Shown one piece after another: positions 4,730 through 30,885 of a DNA stretch of 62,028 nt (position 1 is the first letter of the stretch; each line of letters begins with the position of its first letter). The stretch lies in assembly GCA_030425905.1 (NCBI GenBank), contig JAUHZT010000003.1, positions 1 to 62,028 on the forward strand, written 5' to 3'. The notes below the pieces were generated by a model, which saw only the letters and a list, made by a program, of their open reading frames with translations, had not been told where the DNA came from and did not search any database. This DNA is from Gammaproteobacteria bacterium (GTDB lineage: Bacteria > Pseudomonadota > Gammaproteobacteria > Steroidobacterales > Woeseiaceae). Made by a program: the position numbers and the translations under genes.

Positions 4730-6052
4730 CTAGTGTGCCGAGTCCGATTTGGACAGACGGTACAGGAGCAATGCAGCACGCTTGATCGCTACTGGTACGG
4801 AGTCGATCTGCAGACTTTCGTTCGGTGTATGCGCGCCCTTGCCGAGCGCGCCCAGTCCGGCCAGCGAATCCGCATAGGGTGCCGCGAAAGAAATGTCGGC
4901 AGCACCACGTCGCGACGGATCCAGCAGCGGCATTGGCCCGCGGCCAAGATCTTCATTGATTTGCGACAGGAGGCTTGCCAGGCGTTTGTTGCCTGCGCTT
5001 GGCGCCATTGGCGGATAACGATGTTCGATTTCTATCGTGGCGCTCGTGTGCGGAGATACATCGGCCACGATCGCCCGCATCTTTGCCTCGGCACGTTCGA
5101 TCTGTTCCCTCGACAAGCCGCGCAGGTCGCCATGCATGATGACCTTGTTCGGCACCACATTGGTCTTGCCAAAAGTCGTACCGCGATTCTCTTCAAAGGC
5201 GTAGGTGACATCGGTGCCGCCCTGAATCGTGCCAACATTGAAGGTCAGGTATTCCTCACCACGCACCTCGGTATTGAACTGATGCAGGATTCGCGCTGCC
5301 TCAAAGATGGCACCGTGCCCGATGTCATCATTAAATATCTGCGACGAATGTGCCTGCTTGCCACTGACCTCCAGGTACCAGTTCGAAGAACTGCGGCGCG
5401 CGATAGTCGCCCAGTCCTTGCCGTCGTAATTCGTGCCGTCTTCAAAGCCGAGCGCGACATCAGCCCACTTCCCCGCCTCAACCAGGTCGCGCTTTGACAC
5501 CGACAGTGGCGAACCCGCATTTTCTTCGTCGCCGGTCAGGATAACCGTGACCGGAATATCGTCCAGCACCCCGTTTTCCCGCAAGGCTTTGAGTGCATAG
5601 ATAATCACGGCGTTGCCCGACTTCATATCATCCACACCGGGCCCGTGTGCAAGATTGCCTTCACGCCGGAACGACTGAAAGCCTTCATCAGATTCAAAAA
5701 CGGTATCCAGATGCCCAATCAGCAGTACCTTTGCCGCGGTACCGCTTGTCTTGCGCCCGATGAGATGGCCCGCACGCTGCATTTCCTCAGGCATATCAAC
5801 CCATTCGGTTTCCAGGCCCAGCGCATCCAGCTCCTCACGGTACAGTGCGCCGACCTCACGAACACCGGCAAGATTCGACGTGCCACTGTTGATGTTCACG
5901 GACCGCTCGATCAACTCCATAGCCGTACCTGCGTTGTCGTCGACCCAGTCGGCAATCTGTTGCTCCACAGGGTCCAGTTCGCTGGCGCCTGCACAAGCGG
6001 CGACCGCAAACAAAATCAATCCTGCTACGCGGGAAATCCTGGAATGTTTCAT
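4730..6052 (-). CDS. M20 family metallopeptidase (glutamate carboxypeptidase-like), exported
   Basis: About 440 residues starting at 6052. An upstream in-frame ATG at 6079 exists, but AAGGAG lies 12 bases before 6052 and a clean signal peptide (MKHSRISRVAGLILFAVAACAG) begins there. Zinc-ligand motifs of M20 are present: GHLDTVF, GPGVDDMKSGN, the catalytic GDEENAGS, GFEDGT and a C-terminal GKGAHTPNES. A lid/dimerisation domain sits in the middle. The closest recognised type is carboxypeptidase G2/glutamate carboxypeptidase, which removes C-terminal amino acids. In the operon with the beta-lactamase-fold hydrolase and Alr it likely trims periplasmic peptides, perhaps from cell wall. Substrate inferred. 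Confidence 0.9.
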   Translation of the reverse strand: MKHSRISRVAGLILFAVAACAGASELDPVEQQIADWVDDNAGTAMELIERSVNINSGTSNLAGVREVGALYREELDALGLETEWVDMPEEMQRAGHLIGRKTSGTAAKVLLIGHLDTVFESDEGFQSFRREGNLAHGPGVDDMKSGNAVIIYALKALRENGVLDDIPVTVILTGDEENAGSPLSVSKRDLVEAGKWADVALGFEDGTNYDGKDWATIARRSSSNWYLEVSGKQAHSSQIFNDDIGHGAIFEAARILHQFNTEVRGEEYLTFNVGTIQGGTDVTYAFEENRGTTFGKTNVVPNKVIMHGDLRGLSREQIERAEAKMRAIVADVSPHTSATIEIEHRYPPMAPSAGNKRLASLLSQINEDLGRGPMPLLDPSRRGAADISFAAPYADSLAGLGALGKGAHTPNESLQIDSVPVAIKRAALLLYRLSKSDSAH

Positions 6053-7301: not shown

Positions 7302-8593
7302 CAGACTTCCGCTCCTGCGCGTTTGCGGCCGAAGTTCTCATCAACCCTGATCAGGCTCGCCGCGATGAAAGATGGAACAGTCGCGACCAGGATCCAGACA
7401 AAAAACCACTGGTAACCCAGTGCTTCCTGCAGCTCGCCGCTGAACATTCCCGGCAGCATCATGCCCAGCGCCATGAAGGCTGTGCATATCGCAAAATGCG
7501 CTGTGCTGTGTTCGCCACGTGAAATGTAGATCATGTACAGCATATACGCCGTAAAACCGAAACCATAGCCAAACTGTTCGACGCCCACCGCGGCATTCAC
7601 CAGTAGCTGACTTTGCGGCTGCGTGAAGGCGAGCAGGATATAGACCGCATTAGGCAGGTTGATGGCTGCCACCATCCACCAGAGCCAGTTGCGAAAGCCG
7701 TCGCGCGCACACAGAAACCCACCCAGGATGCCGCCTAGCGTGAGCATTACGATACCAACCGTGCCGTACGCGATACCGACTTGTGTTGTATCGAAGCCGA
7801 GCCCGCCCGCCGCGCGTTCATCGAGCAGAAACGGCGGCGCGAGCTTGACGAGCTGCGCCTCGGCAAAACGGTAGGCAAGCAGAAAGAACAGTGCGCTGAC
7901 GATATGAGGTTTCTGAAAAAATGAAATAACCGTCTCCGCGAACTGCCCGAACAGCGAACGCAACGAGATCATGTCGAGACGGGGCGCCTCGTTACTGGCC
8001 GGTAATTTTCGGGCGTGCCAGGCGAACAACAGCACAAACAGTCCGGCCAGCAGGTAGAAGGTAACCATCCAGCCGAGGCGCGGGTCATCCGTTGTGCGGC
8101 CGATGAATCCTGCGAGCACCACCAGCAGACCCTGCCCGGAGATCATTGCCAGCCGGTAAAAGGTACTGCGGATCCCCACAAACCAGGCTTGCTGGTGATC
8201 GTCGAGCTGGCTGATGTAAAAGCCATCGGCAGCAATGTCGTGCGTAGCCGAACTGAGCGCGAGTAACCAGAACACAGCGAGCGAGTAGCGAAAGAAATTG
8301 TCGGCCGGCAACGTCAGCGCAACGCCGGCAAAAGCCGCACCGATGAGCAGTTGAGCAAGCAGTACCCAGCGTCGCTGCGTGCTGAGAACGTCGACAACAG
8401 GGCTCCAGAGAGGCTTTATAACCCAGGGCAAATACAACCAGCTCGTGTAGAACGCGATCGCGCTATTGGAGATACCAAGACTCTTGTACATCACGACCGA
8501 GACGGTCATGACCACCACATAAGGGAGGCCCTCCGCGTAGTACAGGCTGGGCACCCACCACCACGGTGAATTTGTGCGCGCCGGTCTTGTCAC
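7301..8593 (-). CDS. AmpG-like muropeptide MFS permease
   Basis: A 430-residue integral membrane protein with about 12 hydrophobic segments. The N-terminus (SLYYAEGLPYVVVMTVSVVM, then WLYLPWVIKPLWSPVVD) is the hallmark of the PAT/AmpG branch of the major facilitator superfamily, whose best-known member imports anhydro-muropeptides across the inner membrane. It overlaps the upstream sugar kinase by 4 bp and the downstream serine hydrolase by 1 bp. Placement between a sugar kinase and peptide hydrolases supports muropeptide or amino-sugar import. Some PAT members carry acetyl-CoA or other solutes, so the substrate remains inferred. No dedicated ampR-type regulator is adjacent. Confidence 0.88.
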   Translation of the reverse strand: MTRPARTNSPWWWVPSLYYAEGLPYVVVMTVSVVMYKSLGISNSAIAFYTSWLYLPWVIKPLWSPVVDVLSTQRRWVLLAQLLIGAAFAGVALTLPADNFFRYSLAVFWLLALSSATHDIAADGFYISQLDDHQQAWFVGIRSTFYRLAMISGQGLLVVLAGFIGRTTDDPRLGWMVTFYLLAGLFVLLFAWHARKLPASNEAPRLDMISLRSLFGQFAETVISFFQKPHIVSALFFLLAYRFAEAQLVKLAPPFLLDERAAGGLGFDTTQVGIAYGTVGIVMLTLGGILGGFLCARDGFRNWLWWMVAAINLPNAVYILLAFTQPQSQLLVNAAVGVEQFGYGFGFTAYMLYMIYISRGEHSTAHFAICTAFMALGMMLPGMFSGELQEALGYQWFFVWILVATVPSFIAASLIRVDENFGRKRAGAEV

Positions 8594-9525
8594 GCTCTTA
8601 CAGCCTTGTCACGCGCGATCCGAAGCGTACCGTCGACGGGCGCATCGGCGACTACAACGGCAGCAAAGCGCTGGCCACTAGCGCCCAGCTTTTGCAGCAC
8701 CGCGTCACGGTAACTGCGGCTGTTGCAAACGGCACCGCCTGCGAGTGCCAGGCCAGGCAAAGCGGCAATATCGAGCTTTTGTATTGCAGCGACCACAAGA
8801 GCCGCTGCAGCCGCGGCGCACTCGTCAACAACTTGACCGGCAACCCTATCGCCGGCTTCGCTGTTCGCCAGGACCAGGGGAGCCAGCAAGGCTATGCGCT
8901 GTTTCGCCTCCGTCGCGGAACCGAGCTCGCGCACCAGTTCCCGCGGCTCGTCGACACCAAGATGTTCGAGCAACGCAGGCAGCAACGCTGTTTGCGGACC
9001 CATACCGTCCACCGCCGCGGTCGCTGCAATCAAACCACGCCTGCCGATATCAAACGCGCTGCCAAAGTCACCTATCAGGTGGCCCCAGCCACCAACCACG
9101 CTCTGGCGGCCCTCGGCGTCGCGCCCGATCGCCGCCGAGCCAGTACCCAGTATCAGCGCAACACCCGCGCTGGCAGTTGGCAGCATTGCGAGCACAGCAT
9201 CCGCATCGTGCACAATCTCGGTGTGTGCCGCGAGCTGCCTGGCATTGGCCCAGGCGCCCAGTTGCTGGCGAACATCCGGCAAAGAACTGCCGGCCAGTGC
9301 GAGCACGGCGATATCGCAGGATTTGCCCCCGCGTTCTGCCGCTGCGAGCGCCGTATCGATAGCCCTGTCGAGGTTCGCCAGTGCCTGTTCCGCACCAACT
9401 GCGCGAATATTGGATGGGCCCGCGCTGCCGCTGCCACGGACATGCAACTCGCCGTCACCAGTTAGCCGTGCGACCTGTGCGACTGTTTTCGAACCGCCGC
9501 CGTCGACACCAAGCAGCCAGGTCAC
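8590..9525 (-). CDS. BadF/BadG-type N-acetyl amino-sugar kinase (GlcNAc/MurNAc kinase-like)
   Basis: A 311-residue ASKHA-fold kinase. The phosphate-1 loop LLGVDGGGSKT lies at the N-terminus, a second phosphate loop LILGTGSAAIGRD at about residues 125-137, and ADGQ/GGWGH-type residues (SVVGGWGHLIGDFGSAFDIG) follow, as in N-acetylglucosamine kinases and MurNAc kinases of the BcrAD/BadFG family. It is the first gene of the six-gene operon, divergent from namZ, whose product releases free MurNAc. It would phosphorylate MurNAc or GlcNAc at position 1 or 6. No MurQ-type lactyl-ether hydrolase is seen in this window, so the next step is missing here. Confidence 0.85.
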   Translation of the reverse strand: MTWLLGVDGGGSKTVAQVARLTGDGELHVRGSGSAGPSNIRAVGAEQALANLDRAIDTALAAAERGGKSCDIAVLALAGSSLPDVRQQLGAWANARQLAAHTEIVHDADAVLAMLPTASAGVALILGTGSAAIGRDAEGRQSVVGGWGHLIGDFGSAFDIGRRGLIAATAAVDGMGPQTALLPALLEHLGVDEPRELVRELGSATEAKQRIALLAPLVLANSEAGDRVAGQVVDECAAAAAALVVAAIQKLDIAALPGLALAGGAVCNSRSYRDAVLQKLGASGQRFAAVVVADAPVDGTLRIARDKAVRA

Positions 9526-24026: not shown

Positions 24027-24240
24027 CGGCTGAGCGCGCCTCAAAATGGCTGAGCTGCCTGTCACCCGGTATGAACTCATCACTGACATAGTCCGGCGCG
24101 ATCACGCAGCCCGAGACAACAAGGATGTATCCGCCCAGCGAAAAACGGCACAGCCGTTTTGCCATCGGAATTCGCTGCGGCGCCCACCCGTCACTGCGGG
24201 CAGGCGCCGGGTGTGAAGAGGCTACTCGACTATGCAACAT
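24016..24240 (-). CDS. Very small putative lipoprotein
   Basis: 74 residues if started at 24240, where ATG shares a base with the TAA of the upstream gene (TAATG coupling), or 49 residues from an internal ATG at 24165. The internal start gives a clean lipoprotein signal: MAKRLCRFSLGGYILVVSGC, with lipid Cys followed by VIAPDYVSDEF. No Shine-Dalgarno is obvious before 24165, which favours coupling from 24240 or reinitiation. Its end overlaps the start of the YiiX-like gene by 11 bp, supporting that it is a real gene in the operon. Function unknown. Confidence 0.6.
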   Translation of the reverse strand: MLHSRVASSHPAPARSDGWAPQRIPMAKRLCRFSLGGYILVVSGCVIAPDYVSDEFIPGDRQLSHFEARSADAS

Positions 24241-24773
24241 TACTCGCCGGGGGTAGCGGGTCCCGCTTCGTCCGGGATCACGTAGTCGTCATCGTCATCT
24301 TCACAAATGATGGTTTCAAGCGCGCACAGCAGCGCGAGCGTTCCAACACCCAGAACAGCAGCCAGTCCCCAGCCACTACCGAGGCTCTCGAACGATGTGT
24401 CACCCTGGGAGGAGCCTTCGGTAGAGTTAAGCTGCCGCGGTGACAGGTAGACCGGCGCATCCAGCACGCGCAGGCTCTGGCCGTAGCCCTTCGTCCAGCG
24501 CAGGTCCAGCAAGTCTGTTTGCAGCGCAACCGCCCGCTTGTGGTCGTAGGGCAAGTTGCCCGGCGAGAATTCCTTCTCAAGCCGCAAGCCGAACTGCGGT
24601 GCAGTCTCCAGCTTGCTGCTCTCACCAAAGCCTTTGCTCACATAGAACATCAAGCGCGGCTGAGTGTCGGGGGCAACAGCAAACTCCTGGGCACTCGCAT
24701 ACGGCAGGATGATGGTTTGCACCAGTAGCGCAATGATCGCGCATCCGGCCGTACGTCTCTTGGTTCGTGACAT
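24240..24773 (-). CDS. Exported protein with C-terminal membrane helix and acidic tail, unknown
   Basis: 177 residues from 24773, preceded by AAGGAG seven bases upstream. A signal peptide ends near ILPYASAQ. The body (QPRLMFYVSKGFG, PQFGLRLEKEF, ALQTDLLDLRW) looks like short amphipathic beta strands of an outer-membrane-type hairpin array. A glycine-rich hydrophobic segment (GSGWGLAAVLGVGTLALLCA) follows, then an unusual acidic run EDDDDDYVIPDE. I do not recognise the family. First gene of the minus-strand operon with two lipoproteins, and divergent from the ECF sigma gene. Confidence 0.7.
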   Translation of the reverse strand: MSRTKRRTAGCAIIALLVQTIILPYASAQEFAVAPDTQPRLMFYVSKGFGESSKLETAPQFGLRLEKEFSPGNLPYDHKRAVALQTDLLDLRWTKGYGQSLRVLDAPVYLSPRQLNSTEGSSQGDTSFESLGSGWGLAAVLGVGTLALLCALETIICEDDDDDYVIPDEAGPATPGE

Positions 24774-24815
24774 CGAAAAACTCCTTTGCTGGTCCGGTTG
24801 ATGTGTCTGCACAAG

Positions 24816-24840
24816 CTAACGAGCGGCCGCGGCAATGTAG
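24816..24840 (+). promoter_or_regulatory. Candidate ECF sigma promoter toward the sigma-CHAT operon
   Basis: CTAACGAGC at 24816-24824 carries an ECF-like -35 AAC core; 16 bases later comes GTAG (24837). The same motif with the same 16-base spacing occurs on the other strand at 24885-24861. Conserved AAC-N16-GT format in both copies is what autoregulated ECF promoters look like. Prediction only. Confidence 0.45.
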
Positions 24841-24860
24841 TGCAACAAAAATTCTTTAAG

Positions 24861-24885
24861 CCACTTTTTGTGCCCTGCTCGTTAG
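24861..24885 (-). promoter_or_regulatory. Candidate ECF sigma promoter toward the 24773 operon
   Basis: Reading the minus strand from 24885: CTAACGAGC, then 11 bases, then GTGG at 24864-24861. This mirrors the plus-strand copy at 24816. The two together make a 9-bp perfect inverted repeat (24816-24824 and 24877-24885), with a second nested pair ACAAAAA/TTTTTGT at 24845-24851 and 24865-24871. Alternatively the repeat is a repressor site or cruciform. Confidence 0.45.
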
Positions 24886-25026
24886 GTCTGAAGTAGCCAT
24901 CGCAGTAAACGGGGAGACGCATTGGATAGCGCACAAACAGTCCGGGCGAATACGGACGATAAGCTTCGGACTCAGTTTGCTACCATTAGCCACCTGCATC
25001 CGACGAGCAAAGGAAGGCACACAAGC

Positions 25027-25632
25027 ATGTCCCGAGCGAACGACGCGACAGGTGATGAAACTGATGTGCGCCTTTTTCTTCGCTTTCGTGACGAAGGCGA
25101 CGCCGACGCCTTCGAGAAGATTTTTCGTCGCCATCGCGACGCGCTGCTGGCCTATCTGTGGAGTCTGTCTGGCAACCAGAATGTCGCCGAAGATATCTCT
25201 CAGTATTGCTGGCTGCGGCTCGTGGAAAGCGACCGGAAATCGGGATACCGGCCGCAGCCGGGCGCCACGCTGCTAACGTACCTGAGAACGCTCGGCCGTA
25301 ATCGCTATATTGACGAATACACGCGCAAACACGGTGAGGCACGCACCGACTCCGTCGACGACGTTGAGACTCGAGTCCGCTCTGAATACACCGCGCTCGA
25401 CGCGGCTGCCGGTATCGAGGTTCAGCTAATTATCGAAGCGGCGCTCACTGAGTTGCCGTTTGAGCAGCGTGATGTAATTTCCATGTGGCTGCAGGGGTTC
25501 AGCATCAAGGAAATGATGGGCCTGACAACCGCACCCCGGGATACAGTTCTGAGCCGGAAGAAATACGCTATTCAAAAACTGAAAGCGGCGTTCGAAGCCG
25601 CAGGGTTGAGACTACATGATGCAACACTCTGA
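25027..25632 (+). CDS. RNA polymerase ECF-type sigma factor
   Basis: About 201 residues from ATG 25027, with AAAGGAAGG about 10 bases upstream; in-frame sequence before it (from 24922) is judged non-coding leader. Region 2 is visible as DADAFEKIFRRHRDALLAYLWSL through AEDISQYCWLRLVES, with TYLRTLGRNRYIDEYTRK after it, and region 4 as LTELPFEQRDVISMWLQGFSIKEM with a helix-turn-helix (MMGLTTAPRDTVLSRKKYAIQKL). It overlaps the next gene by 17 bp; that gene encodes a membrane protein in the anti-sigma position. Probably autoregulated from the motif at 24816. Confidence 0.92.
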   Translation: MSRANDATGDETDVRLFLRFRDEGDADAFEKIFRRHRDALLAYLWSLSGNQNVAEDISQYCWLRLVESDRKSGYRPQPGATLLTYLRTLGRNRYIDEYTRKHGEARTDSVDDVETRVRSEYTALDAAAGIEVQLIIEAALTELPFEQRDVISMWLQGFSIKEMMGLTTAPRDTVLSRKKYAIQKLKAAFEAAGLRLHDATL

Positions 25633-26161
25633 CCTGGAGTCCGCCGCAGAAGAGCGCCTGCGTGAAGCGCTCGATGATGCCGCTCCACACCCGTCGACAA
25701 CACACGACGAGACAATCCTGCGTGCAGCACGAGCCAAAGCGCAGGCAACGGCGCAAGACATTGCGAAACCGCGCCGCAGCCTAAGCATGCCGGCTCTTGG
25801 CATTGCGGCCACATTCATCCTCGCGATCGCGGTCGCGTGGTTGTTGCGCATCGAAACACCGGATGACAGCTATGTTCGCAGCGGCACATCGGCAAACGTC
25901 ATACCGGCAGACGGCGTGCGTCTGAAAGAAGCACCCTCGCGATTTGCCTGGCCAGCCTCAAGCGAGGCAGAGCGTTATCGCCTGAGCGTCTACAACGATG
26001 CCGCTGATCTGCTCTGGGCGTCGCCACCGACTACCGAGAGCGAGTGGCTGGTTGGCGACGAGCTGCGACTGCCTGCCAATGCCCGCTACTTTTGGGTTGT
26101 TGATTTGCTGGACTCGGCGCAACGCCCAACAATTGGCCCGTTCTGGTTCACGCTCGAGTGA
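25616..26161 (+). CDS. Single-pass membrane protein, putative anti-sigma factor
   Basis: 181 residues. A soluble N-terminal part (SAAEERLREALDDAAPHPSTTHDETILRAAR), cytoplasmic by position, precedes one membrane helix at about 63-80 (GIAATFILAIAVAWLL). The external part resembles a fibronectin-III-like sandwich (APSRFAWPASSEAERYRLSVYN, ESEWLVGDELRL, ARYFWVVDL). There is no zinc anti-sigma HxxxCxxC motif. It overlaps the sigma gene by 17 bp and the CHAT gene by 4 bp (GTGA). The anti-sigma role is inferred from topology and position only; the sensor would be the outer Fn3-like domain. Confidence 0.75.
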   Translation: MMQHSDLESAAEERLREALDDAAPHPSTTHDETILRAARAKAQATAQDIAKPRRSLSMPALGIAATFILAIAVAWLLRIETPDDSYVRSGTSANVIPADGVRLKEAPSRFAWPASSEAERYRLSVYNDAADLLWASPPTTESEWLVGDELRLPANARYFWVVDLLDSAQRPTIGPFWFTLE

Positions 26162-29100
26162 GCACGCTGCGCAGCTTTTTCGCTCTTGCCTCCCTGCTGC
26201 TGATGCCGGTGGCCTATGCGGCGGAGCCGTATCCGGGAACTGTCATTGAGTCGGTCGCACCGTACTTTGCGGCTGAGCGTGGCGGGCTGAAAGCGGGTGA
26301 CCGCATCGTCGGCTGGTCGAGCGCCGATGCTCCTGAGACCATCAAGCCACTAACTGGCGCTTTTGCTTTGCGTCTGCTGGAACGCGAAGTGCACCAGCGC
26401 ACACCTGTCACGCTGCACGGCTGGCGCGGCGATGTCCGCATTTCGATCACGCCTGCGCATGGCCGCTGGCGGATTGGCGCACACCCGGACTGGCCCAATG
26501 AAGTTGTTGCTGACTACGAACAACTGCGGGCCCGTATAACAACCGACGCAGTCACCGCAGTTGACGACGCCAGTAAACTGGCTACCTCGATGCAGGCGGC
26601 CGGGGACCCCGAAGCCGCGGCCTGGTTGTGGTACAGCTTAAGCGCCCCTGCCGCAGCCGAAGGGCGCTGGCCACAGGCCACCGAGCTCTACCGCAAAGCG
26701 CTTGGAGAACTGCAAAGTGCAGCGTTCACTGCCGAACGCGGTCTGTTGTGGTACCTGCTCGCGGGTGCGCAAGTGCGGCAGAACCTCTTTGACGAAGCTG
26801 TCGCCAGCCATGAGCAGGCACTGGCACTTGAAAGCACCATCAGTACCGATCGACTGGCGATCGCCGCGAATTACGTGGGCCTCGGTCAGATAGCCAGGCG
26901 CCGCAGCGATCTGACACACGCGCTTTCCCTGCTCGAGAGTGCCCGCTCGCTGCAGGAACGGCTGGCGCCGGAAAGCCTGCTGGTTGCCAGTACATTGCAG
27001 GAACTTGCGCGCATCCACCTTGCATTGGGCGACATAGAGCTTGCAGCGGACCAATACGATCGCGCTTATACCATCGCCAGTGTACGAGACCCGGGTGGTG
27101 TCGCCGCCTCCGGCTACCTGAACGGCCTCGGCATCGTGAACTACATGCGTGGCGATGTCGCGGCTGCCGAACAGCAGTGGACGCTGGCGCTGCAAATGAA
27201 ACAGCGCATGGAGCCCGGTAGCCGCAACGTCGCCTCTATCTTGCACAATGTCGGACTGATTAATCGTGAGCGCGGCGACCTGCGTGAAGCCGAGTCCTAT
27301 TACCGGGAGGCGCTGGCTATCGGTGAGCACCTCGAACCAGGCAGCCTGAATATGTCGCGAACGCTGAATAACCTGGGGACGCTGGCACTCGAACAGGGTG
27401 ATCTGCGCAATGCCGAATACTTCCATCAGCGCGCCTTTGAAGTACGTCAATCCACCGTGCCGGATTCGCTGGATCTCGTTATCTCTCTGATTAATCTCGG
27501 CAACGTTGCGCGCGAAAAAGAAGACTACCAGCAGGCTGTCGCATTTTATCGTGACGCGCTCACGATACAGGAGCGCATCGCGCCCAACACCGCCGACCAC
27601 GCCCGCATTCTGGCCAACCTTGGCGTTAGCGCAAGACTGCAGCAACAGCTTGAAAAGGCTGAGCAGCTTTTTGAGCAAGCGCTACAGGTCCAGCTGGCGA
27701 TTGCCCCGGACAGCGCCGACACGGCAGAGATTGCGACCCAACTGGGACAGACTCTGCTCGCCAGCGGCGAGCCTGCGCGCGCCGCCGCCATGTACGAGAA
27801 AGCCAGCAACATCCTGACCGAGCTTGCACCGGACACGTTTCGCAGTGCGCGCGCCTGGCACGGCCTGGCGCTGGTAGCCGAAGCGACCGGCGATGCGAAA
27901 ACGGCCAACCAGCACTACGTTCGCGCGGTGGGTGCCCTGCAACGACAGCAAGAACGGCTGGGCGGCTCGGACGAGTCGCGCGCGCGCGTCAAGGCGCGCT
28001 TCATGAATATCTACAAAGATTACATTCGCTTCTTGCTCGAAGCAGGAGAACCCGAACGGGCCTTCGAAATTCTGGAACAGTCCAGGGCAAAAGAACTCTC
28101 GAACATGCTGGCGGAGCGCGACCTCGTTTTCGCCGAGAGCGTGCCGCCCGAACTCGAACGTGAGCGCCGGCAACTCGGCAAACGCTACGAAGACCAGCAA
28201 CGCGAACTGTACAGTACGACCGATGCGGCAAGACGCGAGGAACTTCAGACCAGCCTGCTTGCCATCCGCCGCGAGCAGGATGCAATGCAGCGCCGACTGC
28301 GTGACGAGGCGCCCGGGCTTGCGCAGCTCAAGTACCCGGGCAGTCACTCGTTTGAGGATTATCGCCAGGCTGTGCCCGCCGGCGCCGTCGCCGTCGCCTT
28401 CAATCTCAACAAGACGTATACCGACAGCTTCCTGATAGACAGGCACGGGCAACTGCACGTAGCCAGGCTGGAGGTCGGCGAGGAGGCGCTCCGTGAGCAG
28501 GTTCGGCGCTTCCGGTTTCTGATAGACGCAGGCCGATGGGACAGCGAACCTGGCGCACCGTTGCTCGACCTGGCGGCCCGCTTATACGAGGAATTGCTAG
28601 AACCCCTGCAATCACAGATAGAGGATGCGGACCTGTTGCTGATTGTGCCCGATGGCGCGCTGCAGGTATTGCCTTTCGCCGCGATGCGGCGCGCTAACGG
28701 CGCTACCGGCCAGTACCTCGCCGAGTGGAAACCAAGCCTGCTTGTCAGCTCCCTCGGTATCTACTCACAGCTTGCACAACGCTCTGACTCGCAAAAAACA
28801 GGCGAGTTGCGCGGCCTGGTGGCATTCGGAGACCCGAACTTCCTGTCGGCCACAGAGAGTACCGCGGCAGTAAACAAGCGTGTTGGCTATAACCTGGCAC
28901 AACTGGCCCCGCTACCCTGGACCGCGACCGAAGTTAAGAATATCGCTGACACCTATCCGGACAACAGTGTGATTTACACTGGCGCTGAAGCCACCGAGGA
29001 GCGCGCGAAATCGGTACCTGGCAGCACGCGTTTCCTGCATTTCGCAACGCACGCAATGCTCGATGTGTGGCATCCGCTCGATACCGCCATCGTACTCAGC

Positions 29101-29544
29101 GCTCCGGATGATCCCGAAAACGCTGCCGAAAACGGACTGCTGAGCGCCTGGGAGATCTACGAAGGCCTGCGCGTTGATGCTGAACTGGTCACTTTGTCCG
29201 CCTGTGAGACAGCACTCGGTGGCGCTTACTCCGGTGAAGGCCTGCTTGGTCTCACACGGGCTTTTCAATACGCCGGTGCGTCCACGGTCATGGCTTCACT
29301 CTGGAATATCAACGACCGCTCCACCAGTGATCTGATGACTCACTTTTACAAAGCCACCGCCGAGGGGCTGCCCCTGGCTGAGGCCTTGCAACAGGCGCAG
29401 TTGGCGATGCTGCGTGGCGACAGCCCGGCGCCGCGATCCCTGCGCGCCCGACTGAAACGCTGGTTGCGGGCAGACGACTCGACAACGTCATTGCAGCACC
29501 CCTACCACTGGGGCGGCTTTGTCATGAACGGGCGCGGCCACTAA
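26158..29544 (+). CDS. Exported PDZ-TPR-CHAT protein (putative caspase-like protease)
   Basis: 1128 residues from GTG 26158. Order: signal peptide (ends VAYAAEP, about 22); PDZ-like domain about 25-100 (GTVIESVAPYFAAERGGLKAGDRIVGWS); about ten tetratricopeptide repeats from 110 to 600 of the kinesin-light-chain type (ILHNVGLINRERGDLREAE); a coiled coil about 640-720; then a CHAT domain from about 770. The peptidase dyad is intact: His965 in LHFATHAML and Cys1016 in LSACETALGG, with the family ending HPYHWGGFVMNG. CHAT proteins are clan CD, caspase-like cysteine peptidases. The signal peptide makes this one periplasmic or external. Operon with ECF sigma and its putative anti-sigma. Confidence 0.93.
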   Translation: MSTLRSFFALASLLLMPVAYAAEPYPGTVIESVAPYFAAERGGLKAGDRIVGWSSADAPETIKPLTGAFALRLLEREVHQRTPVTLHGWRGDVRISITPAHGRWRIGAHPDWPNEVVADYEQLRARITTDAVTAVDDASKLATSMQAAGDPEAAAWLWYSLSAPAAAEGRWPQATELYRKALGELQSAAFTAERGLLWYLLAGAQVRQNLFDEAVASHEQALALESTISTDRLAIAANYVGLGQIARRRSDLTHALSLLESARSLQERLAPESLLVASTLQELARIHLALGDIELAADQYDRAYTIASVRDPGGVAASGYLNGLGIVNYMRGDVAAAEQQWTLALQMKQRMEPGSRNVASILHNVGLINRERGDLREAESYYREALAIGEHLEPGSLNMSRTLNNLGTLALEQGDLRNAEYFHQRAFEVRQSTVPDSLDLVISLINLGNVAREKEDYQQAVAFYRDALTIQERIAPNTADHARILANLGVSARLQQQLEKAEQLFEQALQVQLAIAPDSADTAEIATQLGQTLLASGEPARAAAMYEKASNILTELAPDTFRSARAWHGLALVAEATGDAKTANQHYVRAVGALQRQQERLGGSDESRARVKARFMNIYKDYIRFLLEAGEPERAFEILEQSRAKELSNMLAERDLVFAESVPPELERERRQLGKRYEDQQRELYSTTDAARREELQTSLLAIRREQDAMQRRLRDEAPGLAQLKYPGSHSFEDYRQAVPAGAVAVAFNLNKTYTDSFLIDRHGQLHVARLEVGEEALREQVRRFRFLIDAGRWDSEPGAPLLDLAARLYEELLEPLQSQIEDADLLLIVPDGALQVLPFAAMRRANGATGQYLAEWKPSLLVSSLGIYSQLAQRSDSQKTGELRGLVAFGDPNFLSATESTAAVNKRVGYNLAQLAPLPWTATEVKNIADTYPDNSVIYTGAEATEERAKSVPGSTRFLHFATHAMLDVWHPLDTAIVLSAPDDPENAAENGLLSAWEIYEGLRVDAELVTLSACETALGGAYSGEGLLGLTRAFQYAGASTVMASLWNINDRSTSDLMTHFYKATAEGLPLAEALQQAQLAMLRGDSPAPRSLRARLKRWLRADDSTTSLQHPYHWGGFVMNGRGH

Positions 29545-29563: not shown

Positions 29564-30676
29564 CTAGAAACGCAGATCAAGACGTGGTGGCGGCTTGATG
29601 GGCGGCTGGAAACAAAGTGAACGTCCGATCGCATTGCCAGTCACGGTGCCTTTGTCCACCAGCGTTACAAAGCAGTCAATCAGCACGCTGCCATTGTTCA
29701 CAATGCGCGCCCCTGTGTCGTTGACGAGTACCGCTCTACTCGTGGCGTGCAGCCGTCCACCGCCGCCCGTGGTAATTGTTCCGACACCGTAATTGGACCA
29801 GGGGCCCTCATTGCGCAGGGTGCCGGACGTGACGGTGAGTAAGCCGTTCACATTGAGCGTGGCGCCCAGGTTGGTGATGTAACTGCCGGGAGTGGCATCG
29901 AACCGGCCACCTTCATCGACTGTCAGTACACCGTGCTCTGACCACATGATCAGGTTACCGGCAAGCTCGAGGCGACCACGGCCAGATACTGTCAATCGGC
30001 GGCGTAGTTTCATTTCCGACCCTGCATGATTGACAAGTTGCCCGTGAATCAGGGCCAGGTGCGGATTGAAGCGGGAGCCTCCCTTGTTGATAAAGACGCC
30101 GCCCAGATCAACCAGCAAGGATTCGAGATTAGGGGTAAGTCTTGTATCCCGGTCAAAGTAAAAACCATTGTTAATCAACTCCCCGCCATCAAATACCTGG
30201 ATGTGACCGGAGTTGTATATCCCCCATTGCACGAGCGTTGGGGAAGGCAAGCCATTTTCAATGGTCCCTTCCGACCGAACAATCCCTTCGTTGCTCAACG
30301 AACCCTTGTTGAGCCGCAGCGTTGCTTTGTTGGCAAGAATAACGGTGCCGCGGTTCAGGAAACTGGTATGCGGCGGGATACGCATGATCGAGTCGTTCAG
30401 CAGGCTCAGGTTGCCCTCATTTATCATCTGTCCGCTAATCGCAAGATCGATGCGCGCCGCCACTTCCAGCCGGTCGCCCGCCGCGATGGTATAGCCGGCT
30501 GGCAACAAGCAGCTTCCCAGTGCAGGGCTATTCGCGGGTGGCGAACCCCAGGTGCCACCAAGACCGGTGCAGTCCGACTCCCAGATTAGCGACACGGTTG
30601 CAGCAAATGTCGGGGTCGTTAAAAGCGCGGAAAGTGCCACGCTCCAGAAGAATCGTTTAACGTTGACACTGTTCAT
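29564..30676 (-). CDS. Secreted repeat (beta-helix-like) protein, unknown
   Basis: 370 residues with a signal peptide (MNSVNVKRFFWSVALSALL to TFAA) and SD-like AGGGGC eight bases before the start. The rest is built of short repeats around N-x-G and L-x-N-x-G (MINEGNLSLL, FLNRGTVILAN, LSNEGIVRSEG, IYNSGHIQVFDGG, LINNGFYF), spaced about 20-25 residues, the signature of a right-handed beta-helix or filamentous haemagglutinin-type solenoid. Cysteines near the N-terminus (SDCTGLGG, GSCLLP) and in the tail may form disulfides. No passenger-cleavage or autotransporter barrel is present. It ends 19 bp from the CHAT gene, convergently. Confidence 0.75.
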   Translation of the reverse strand: MNSVNVKRFFWSVALSALLTTPTFAATVSLIWESDCTGLGGTWGSPPANSPALGSCLLPAGYTIAAGDRLEVAARIDLAISGQMINEGNLSLLNDSIMRIPPHTSFLNRGTVILANKATLRLNKGSLSNEGIVRSEGTIENGLPSPTLVQWGIYNSGHIQVFDGGELINNGFYFDRDTRLTPNLESLLVDLGGVFINKGGSRFNPHLALIHGQLVNHAGSEMKLRRRLTVSGRGRLELAGNLIMWSEHGVLTVDEGGRFDATPGSYITNLGATLNVNGLLTVTSGTLRNEGPWSNYGVGTITTGGGGRLHATSRAVLVNDTGARIVNNGSVLIDCFVTLVDKGTVTGNAIGRSLCFQPPIKPPPRLDLRF

Positions 30677-30885
30677 ATAAGCCCCTGACTCGCGATTGGT
30701 GAGAATGAAGCCGGCCGGCTTCTGCAGGAAGAACGATCAGGCAACGAAAATTGGTGCAACGCCCGGCGAATAGCGACAGGTTTTCCTGGCAGCGACTGAT
30801 CACTCACAGCCAGACTGCCGGGAGATCGGACCGAGCCTGCCGCCCTACGCAACAGGCCCGGCACCGCCTGGCGAAAACAGCGCTG

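Follow-up and report, generated by a model that had tools for sequence, protein, structure and literature searches.

A probable envelope signalling switch formed by an ECF sigma factor, a candidate membrane anti-sigma factor, and a predicted-export PDZ-TPR-CHAT protein in a member of the Woeseiaceae

In a gammaproteobacterium of the family Woeseiaceae (GenBank assembly GCA_030425905.1), positions 1 to 62,028 of the forward strand of contig JAUHZT010000003.1 were analysed; this whole stretch of 62,028 nucleotides is referred to as the window hereafter. Three consecutive genes in the window encode a sigma factor of the extracytoplasmic function (ECF) type, a candidate membrane anti-sigma factor, and a protein with PDZ, TPR, and CHAT parts that is predicted to be exported. 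This trio is probably a signalling switch operated from the cell envelope. By analogy with the DdvS/DdvA system of Myxococcus xanthus, we propose that it works like a split version of that system, the CHAT protein belonging to the input arm; we give this proposal an even chance of being right. Among the CHAT genes found in relatives by similarity to the window gene, the eight that are flanked by sufficient sequence all have an ECF sigma gene nearby, and the known structure that its CHAT profile matches best is that of DdvA.

Structure of the operon and its products

The ECF sigma gene (24922–25632), the anti-sigma candidate gene (25616–26161), and the CHAT gene (26158–29544) are consecutive open reading frames (ORFs), all on the forward strand. 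The stop at 25632 lies beyond the start at 25616, so that the first two genes overlap by 17 bp, and the last two overlap by 4 bp (stop at 26161, start at 26158), as had been claimed in an earlier reading of the same letters (the sequence-only reading). That reading had the sigma side begin at 24773, which is wrong: this position is the likely ATG of a divergent gene, and the sigma gene most likely starts with the TTG at 24922 (an alternative ATG is at 25027), because a ribosome-binding site and a TTG, read by eye, also occur in a relative, L011. (Loci and genomes outside the window are denoted by L and G numbers, respectively.) The sigma product belongs to the ECF family: it scored 36.7 bits (cut-off 24; E = 3.8e-9) for region 2 (Sigma70_r2) in Pfam and 54.4 bits (cut-off 42.9) for the whole-length ECF model of NCBIfam (TIGR02937, sigma70-ECF). 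Region 4 was only sub-threshold in Pfam. A profile of the sigma factor searched against the PDB matched ECF structures, with SigL at the top (1.9e-15).

The CHAT gene encodes a protein of 1128 residues, of which residues 804–1125 (28567–29532) matched the CHAT model PF12770 with E = 6.3e-67 (226.5 bits against a cut-off of 24), alongside many TPR models. With this domain above the cut-off and a His/Cys dyad, the protein is a member of the CHAT family. The dyad, His965 (codon 29050–29052) and Cys1016 (29203–29205), is presumed to be catalytic; H961, H965, and C1016 are kept in 15/15 sequences of the CHAT alignment. A larger collection was cleared of CHAT ORFs shorter than 350 aa and of four duplicates (183 to 179). 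Among its 179 distinct ORFs, H and C occupy the dyad columns in 45/45 sigma-linked CHATs and in 132/134 others; the dyad is indeed intact, as the sequence-only reading had it. Since it is also kept in nearly all CHATs without sigma, catalysis seems important yet not tied to sigma. Cys1016 is also the sole cysteine of the protein; 17 related PDZ-type proteins have 2–9 cysteines, some of them N-terminal.

Upstream of the CHAT domain, three parts were distinguished. Residues 1–21 (26158–26220) form a predicted signal peptide, read by eye and modelled as a helix at residues 2–20. It is followed by a PDZ domain (residues ~26–112; 26233–26493) and a TPR solenoid (residues ~114–600; 26497–27957), the latter recognized by the Pfam TPR models and by paired helices in the structure model. 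This model, with a predicted local distance difference test score (pLDDT) of 83.8 and a predicted template modelling score of 0.76, shows a folded N-terminal domain at residues 28–110 (blocks of 87–93 for residues 31–110). The PDZ domain claimed by the sequence-only reading was marginal from the single sequence (Pfam E = 0.023). In the VIA-align listing for the model, no PDZ fold was found among the rows listed, which were filled by TPR rows; PDZ was therefore tested by profile instead. A profile of 13 sequences of this region matched the PDZ domains of DegP (best, 7.4e-8), DegQ, and RseP in the PDB, which bears the claim out. The Pfam trypsin model gave no match to the protein at E = 0.1. The N-terminal regions vary between lineages, other sigma-linked CHATs carrying different ones by eye; as judged from these sequences, the sigma-CHAT association is not defined by PDZ.

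The middle gene encodes a predicted single-pass protein of 181 residues: a short cytoplasmic part, one transmembrane helix (residues ~59–77; 25790–25846) from a hydropathy scan, the orientation of which is suggested by basic residues on its N side, and a C-terminal domain like a fibronectin type III (FnIII) beta-sandwich (residues 93–181; 25892–26158). We regard it as a probable anti-sigma factor restraining sigma at the membrane, because of its gene position, its topology, and its relatives that keep a zinc-finger motif. These three points uphold the membrane anti-sigma candidate of the sequence-only reading, and the family models do not: the NCBIfam anti-sigma model was sub-threshold only (E = 0.021) and the NCBIfam RseA model gave no match. 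The HxxxCxxC motif, the criterion for zinc-binding anti-sigma (ZAS) factors, is absent from the window protein and present in the relatives L023, L024, L202, and L203. In L023 and L024, both from Acidobacteriota, the same C-terminal domain stands behind the zinc-finger motif in a gene between sigma and CHAT; the L023 protein has sub-threshold matches to zf-HC2 (0.007, Pfam) and ChrR (0.00079, NCBIfam), and the L024 protein to RseA (E = 0.014). The profile of the anti-sigma alignment weakly matched 3hug_B in the PDB (E = 0.053), which we take to be the SigL/RslA complex of Mycobacterium tuberculosis. The C-terminal domain (residues ~93–181) was modelled confidently (blocks of pLDDT 78–98). Its Foldseek matches to FN3 and other beta-sandwich folds were weak, with CopC first, a best E of 5.8e-3, and nothing at 0.001 or better. 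A hidden Markov model of the domain found 7 further proteins below 1e-4 beyond its 9 seeds, in loci that had all been picked around CHAT or anti-sigma.

The relationship with DdvA emerged from profiles. The CHAT domain as a single sequence gave no useful match in the PDB, so a profile was needed. With 14 rows, including one Myxococcota row (L046) and other rows outside the PDZ clade described below, DdvA (8ROT/8RW5) came first (8.1e-7) and Csx29 reached ~0.01; with the ten PDZ-clade rows only, DdvA was still first (5.8e-4; Csx29, ~0.03). In a Foldseek search, DdvA occupied ranks 2 (3.6e-15) and 3, after a separase. The PDB title of DdvA is that of a transmembrane anti-sigma factor.

Recurrence of the gene set

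The sequence-only reading had staked its proposal on the co-occurrence of the trio in other genomes. Our survey of this point found that the trio recurs elsewhere, though not in every lineage. Sigma was counted as nearby when an ECF sigma gene lies within 4 kb of the CHAT gene, and a CHAT gene was called fully flanked when 4 kb is available on both sides. The window CHAT matched 7/119 relatives at 1e-30, and its profile matched 11/107 genomes of the family at 1e-40, the own genome being included in both. Among the 13 CHATs found by similarity to the window CHAT or its profile (the relatives set), sigma is nearby in 10, and in all 8 of those fully flanked. The expected rate, about 6.5%, was calculated from a span of ~11 kb and the 19 matches to sigma region 2 that the own genome (3.38 Mb) contains; the binomial P for 8/8 is 3e-10, ignoring kinship and differences in sigma number. 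All three CHATs without sigma have a contig end close by on one or both sides: in L004 and L016 an anti-sigma-like gene adjoins CHAT, and L199, with 6.0 kb of upstream and 1.8 kb of downstream sequence, shows none. A class sample, consisting of 78 regions taken from the 116 CHAT matches listed and chosen by strength and length, added CHATs of the same genus or order: L160 and L176 have sigma, and L191 and L182, with short flanks, have none.

The association also holds in the reverse direction. An anti-sigma profile searched against 396 genomes of the order gave seven matches below 1e-8, namely the four seeds and one each in G528, G519, and G079; these three all adjoin a CHAT gene and sigma and thus represent three new CHAT loci. 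Loci were judged only for matches below 1e-8, which left out 27 weaker ones. A transmembrane gene lies directly 3′ of sigma in 36 of the 45 sigma-linked CHATs (44 distinct sigma genes). By eye, the one in L148, among the 36, is unlike an anti-sigma gene, and those in L021 and L046, missed by the filter, are anti-sigma-like.

A quick CHAT tree of 86 of the 179 rows, built without bootstrap and with long rows poorly placed, placed the window CHAT within a clade of 14 proteins, whose sources are its own family, Acidobacteriota, and one further bacterium. By eye, 13 of them have a PDZ-like N-terminus, and the remaining one is cut by its contig. Over the 86 rows, the sigma label changes 19 times, compared with 27.6 in shuffles (0/500 as low). 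The sigma association is clustered on the CHAT tree, yet it has been gained or lost repeatedly.

Several loci showed additional features. L018 (2–16267) contains an exported M23-like protein (by eye) surrounded by three CHAT ORFs, of which two are PDZ-TPR-CHAT as judged by eye; no sigma was seen in the locus. Similar exported proteins of ~320–360 aa (by eye) lie between anti-sigma and CHAT in L202 (5506–6498), L203 (4335–5294), and L204 (2757–3842) and are possibly an extra component; the one in L202 has no Pfam or NCBIfam match. In L201 (27–5092; G009), caspase-like (C14-type) and phage-tail-sheath-like genes (by eye) stand beside the cluster of CHAT, anti-sigma, and sigma. Between the ECF sigma and CHAT genes of L046, the gene at 7480–9162 encodes a zinc-finger-like N-terminus (by eye) followed by a trypsin-like domain (Trypsin_2, 8.7e-28), possibly a self-cleaving anti-sigma factor. 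No clear fusion of anti-sigma and CHAT was seen by eye inside the loci examined, the fusion evidence being DdvA alone.

Promoter-like sites and neighbouring genes

The motif TTAARCCA-N15-TCGTTA was derived from the sigma-upstream regions of the window and L011, the very sites that it matches exactly. In the window, the predicted sigma promoter TTAAGCCA-N15-TCGTTA is located at 24856–24884 (forward strand) upstream of the operon, and the TTG at 24922 sits 38 nt past its predicted −10. In L011, the exact motif occurs on both strands, at 4982–5010 and, on the other strand, at 4957–4985; these three are the only exact matches in the own and L011 genomes. The window was also scanned (~124,000 positions) by a score built from the three exact sites, in which the operon ranks first by construction. 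Two weak promoter-like sites with 3 mismatches each lie on the reverse strand: one at 24817–24845 (rank 6 in the window) for the divergent gene, and one at 30731–30759 (rank 10), 55 nt upstream of 30676. A copy with 2 mismatches is found in L011 (10812–10840) at the homologue of the downstream secreted gene. In the score scan, L197 gave no convincing copy and L012 gave one weak site at sigma. The top-scoring copy of the L004 contig (3872–3900) lies just past CHAT and is directed toward a downstream gene that the contig end truncates.

Both neighbours of the operon are on the reverse strand. The divergent gene (24240–24812; likely start, ATG at 24773) encodes a small protein that appears exported by eye, and the convergent gene (29564–30676) encodes a secreted repetitive protein that is possibly beta-helix-like (by eye); neither product has a Pfam or NCBIfam match. 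A homologue of the latter is encoded in the corresponding position of L011 (27% identity, 1e-23). Among the 107 genomes of the family, the convergent secreted gene was found in two (the own genome and G009), beside the trio in both, and was not reported in G062, though the CHAT of G062 is also close. In L202 (2500–4053) and L203 (6745–8268), genes next to the sigma/anti-sigma/CHAT loci encode secreted proteins in which a choice-of-anchor Q domain scores above the cut-off; both proteins have sub-threshold NosD matches, and the L202 protein a sub-threshold POMP repeat. By eye, a beta-helix-like secreted gene also lies beside the CHAT locus in L028. A reading of the region as a defence system was rejected: in PADLOC, the trio and the two neighbour proteins match only a generic TPR model.

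Possible mechanism and alternatives

In the proposed mechanism, the anti-sigma factor would keep the ECF sigma factor bound to the inner membrane and expose its FnIII-like domain to the periplasm, and the exported PDZ-TPR-CHAT protein would work in the input arm. The PDZ and TPR parts of this protein may bind the signal, which could be the free ends of proteins, a surface protein that is misfolded or missing, or the FnIII domain itself. The CHAT domain would then make or license the first cut in the anti-sigma factor, and general intramembrane and cytoplasmic proteases would complete the breakdown; an RseP homologue is present in the own genome (7.5e-106). The released sigma factor would transcribe the operon that encodes it, together with a few genes for exported proteins nearby. 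Gene order, overlaps, the intact dyad, domain content, recurrence, and the promoter-like motif common to the window and one relative are observations; the localisation, the binding between sigma and anti-sigma, the cleavage, the promoter use, and the direction of signalling are inferred. That anti-sigma and TPR-CHAT are united in one Myxococcus protein suggests that the two products meet here and that CHAT belongs to the input arm; the CHAT protein most likely acts on the anti-sigma factor, either as a protease or as a docked sensor. The strict conservation of the dyad would favour cutting over sensing, though it is also strict in CHATs without sigma. A wider claim, which we regard as tentative and rather unlikely as a whole, is that the site-1 cleavage of an ECF anti-sigma factor in the periplasm is carried out by a CHAT-family (caspase) protease, gated through PDZ/TPR by envelope signals, and that such modules, split or fused as in DdvA, are widespread and a possible source of the sigma/CHAT arm of Craspase.

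Several observations weigh against the proposed mechanism. One group concerns the gene association. The CHAT of L178, from the same order and more distant in sequence, is fully flanked and has no sigma nearby. The association is weaker in the class sample (11/44 CHATs with sigma nearby; P = 9e-5), and in the genome_contigs set it is not above chance among the fully flanked CHATs (4/40; P = 0.26; 19/94 with any flank); the cyanobacterial rows of the latter set account for 0/24, and without them the count is 4/25. In the clade of 14, sigma is nearby in 10 proteins and absent in 3 of the 13 that can be evaluated, one being impossible to judge, and no sigma was seen in the PDZ-type loci L019, L020, and L026 (short flanks, outside the tree). 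In L197 (10354–12703), a PDZ-TPR-CHAT gene is convergent with an ECF sigma gene, and a protein-kinase-like gene (by eye) replaces the anti-sigma gene. Another group concerns the components. The anti-sigma candidate has no match to any Pfam family, and its cytoplasmic half was modelled at a pLDDT mostly below 50. In VIA-align, the Z scores of Csx29 (up to 29.7) and separase (26.7) exceed that of DdvA (22.1; row 49 of 50), and the fold alone therefore does not single out DdvA. The last group concerns the promoter motif: with at most one mismatch, each of the two genomes gains one match, and the totals (2 and 3) do not overall exceed those of a reversed-pattern control (3 and 2); a wider regulon is therefore not demonstrated. 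Moreover, none of the four sites scoring above rank 6 in the window, apart from that of the operon, coincides with a gene start, and a site with a similar score lies in front of an unrelated gene; therefore, the sites at the divergent and downstream genes are suggestive only.

Because CHATs of the same clade exist without sigma nearby, a serious rival is that CHAT is an effector made under active sigma, which processes or polices exported proteins (e.g., the product of 29564–30676) and does not touch the anti-sigma factor. It would explain why some PDZ-TPR-CHATs lack sigma, and it agrees with the position of CHAT at the end of an operon that has a sigma-type promoter motif and with the secreted genes beside CHAT loci, both the one found with the trio in the own genome and G009 and the repeat/beta-helix-like ones beside L202, L203, and L028. 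However, the TPR-CHAT of DdvA belongs to the anti-sigma factor itself and hence to the input arm, and a mere target gene need not remain adjacent in both convergent and divergent arrangements; we consider this explanation doubtful, while taking it seriously. It is also conceivable, but unlikely, that TPR-CHAT forms a DdvA-like receptor anew by docking onto the FnIII domain and gates another site-1 protease, its own catalysis serving another purpose. Such a non-proteolytic co-sensor has its precedent in DdvA, and the recovery of further FnIII-like domains in the selected loci and the trypsin-like domain that L046 has besides CHAT are compatible with it; the unbroken dyad of the sigma-linked CHATs argues the other way, though the dyad is nearly as constant in the others. 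Finally, the three genes might be chance neighbours held together by operon inertia without a functional link. The genome_contigs counts, about those of chance, would agree with this, but the relatives set and the class sample both exceed the expected rate, the reciprocal anti-sigma search led to CHAT loci, and the two functions are fused in DdvA; we regard mere neighbourhood as very improbable.

If the proposed mechanism is true, a caspase-like enzyme would join the short list of proteases that relay the envelope state to transcription, and DdvA, ECF54, and Craspase would be linked as variants of one theme. The trio would also provide a small three-gene system for asking, via a single cysteine mutant, what role the CHAT domain plays in DdvA-type regulators.

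Comparison with known systems

Craspase (Cas7-11, Csx29, Csx30, and CASP-sigma) is cytoplasmic and resembles the window trio in that a TPR-CHAT protease of similar fold, an ECF sigma factor, and a sigma inhibitor are encoded together. It differs from the trio, which has predicted export, a PDZ domain, and a membrane anti-sigma candidate, and the window protein does not reach the NCBIfam cut-off for Csx29 (22.7 against 300 bits). The sequence-only reading had set the CHAT protein apart from the Craspase proteases by its location; this stands as far as the predicted export goes, but Craspase is at the same time a functional parallel, in which Csx29 cleaves Csx30, reported to be an ECF sigma inhibitor, upon activation by target RNA (PMC10028731). 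This precedent, that a TPR-CHAT protein can cut an inhibitor of an ECF sigma factor, supports by analogy the action on the anti-sigma factor proposed here.

In DegS-RseA-sigmaE, the likeness lies in the PDZ domain, as in HtrA proteases and RseP, and in the single-pass anti-sigma candidate. The window PDZ is of the HtrA type by profile (7.4e-8), and the export of the protein was read by eye; the difference is that a caspase-like CHAT domain takes the place of the trypsin fold. DegS-like action of an exported PDZ protease on a membrane anti-sigma factor would fit the intact dyad and the PDZ domain, and this possibility is strengthened by DdvA. In ECF54, CHAT proteins are reported in the conserved genetic context of the ECF sigma factor, the model member being from Geodermatophilus; the group is described as lacking an anti-sigma factor (PMC8999054). 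A CHAT gene near an ECF sigma gene is thus shared with the window, and the anti-sigma candidate is the difference. In the literature covered, which excludes most subscription journals, we found no account of a separate exported PDZ-TPR-CHAT protein encoded with sigma and anti-sigma.

The closest likeness is to DdvS/DdvA, which has an ECF sigma factor, a transmembrane anti-sigma factor, and the TPR-CHAT fold. The window protein has this fold, the dyad positions of DdvA align with its H and C, and the window sigma gene adjoins a gene with a transmembrane helix, whose product is an anti-sigma candidate without a model above the cut-off. An antiphage island is reported to be under the control of DdvS (PMC12288465), and control of CBASS/CRISPR defence genes was taken as a mark of that system; nothing like this control is predicted in the window, where only local promoter-like sites were found. 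As for the input, the external signal that inactivates DdvA is described as unknown (PMC4374960). The two systems also differ in that anti-sigma and TPR-CHAT are one protein in DdvA and two in the window, and in that the window has an added PDZ domain and the FnIII-like domain on its anti-sigma candidate. Since anti-sigma and TPR-CHAT are encoded by separate, overlapping genes, we liken the trio to DdvS/DdvA and do not file it as a member: by this analogy, it resembles a DdvA divided between two proteins and extended by a PDZ domain.

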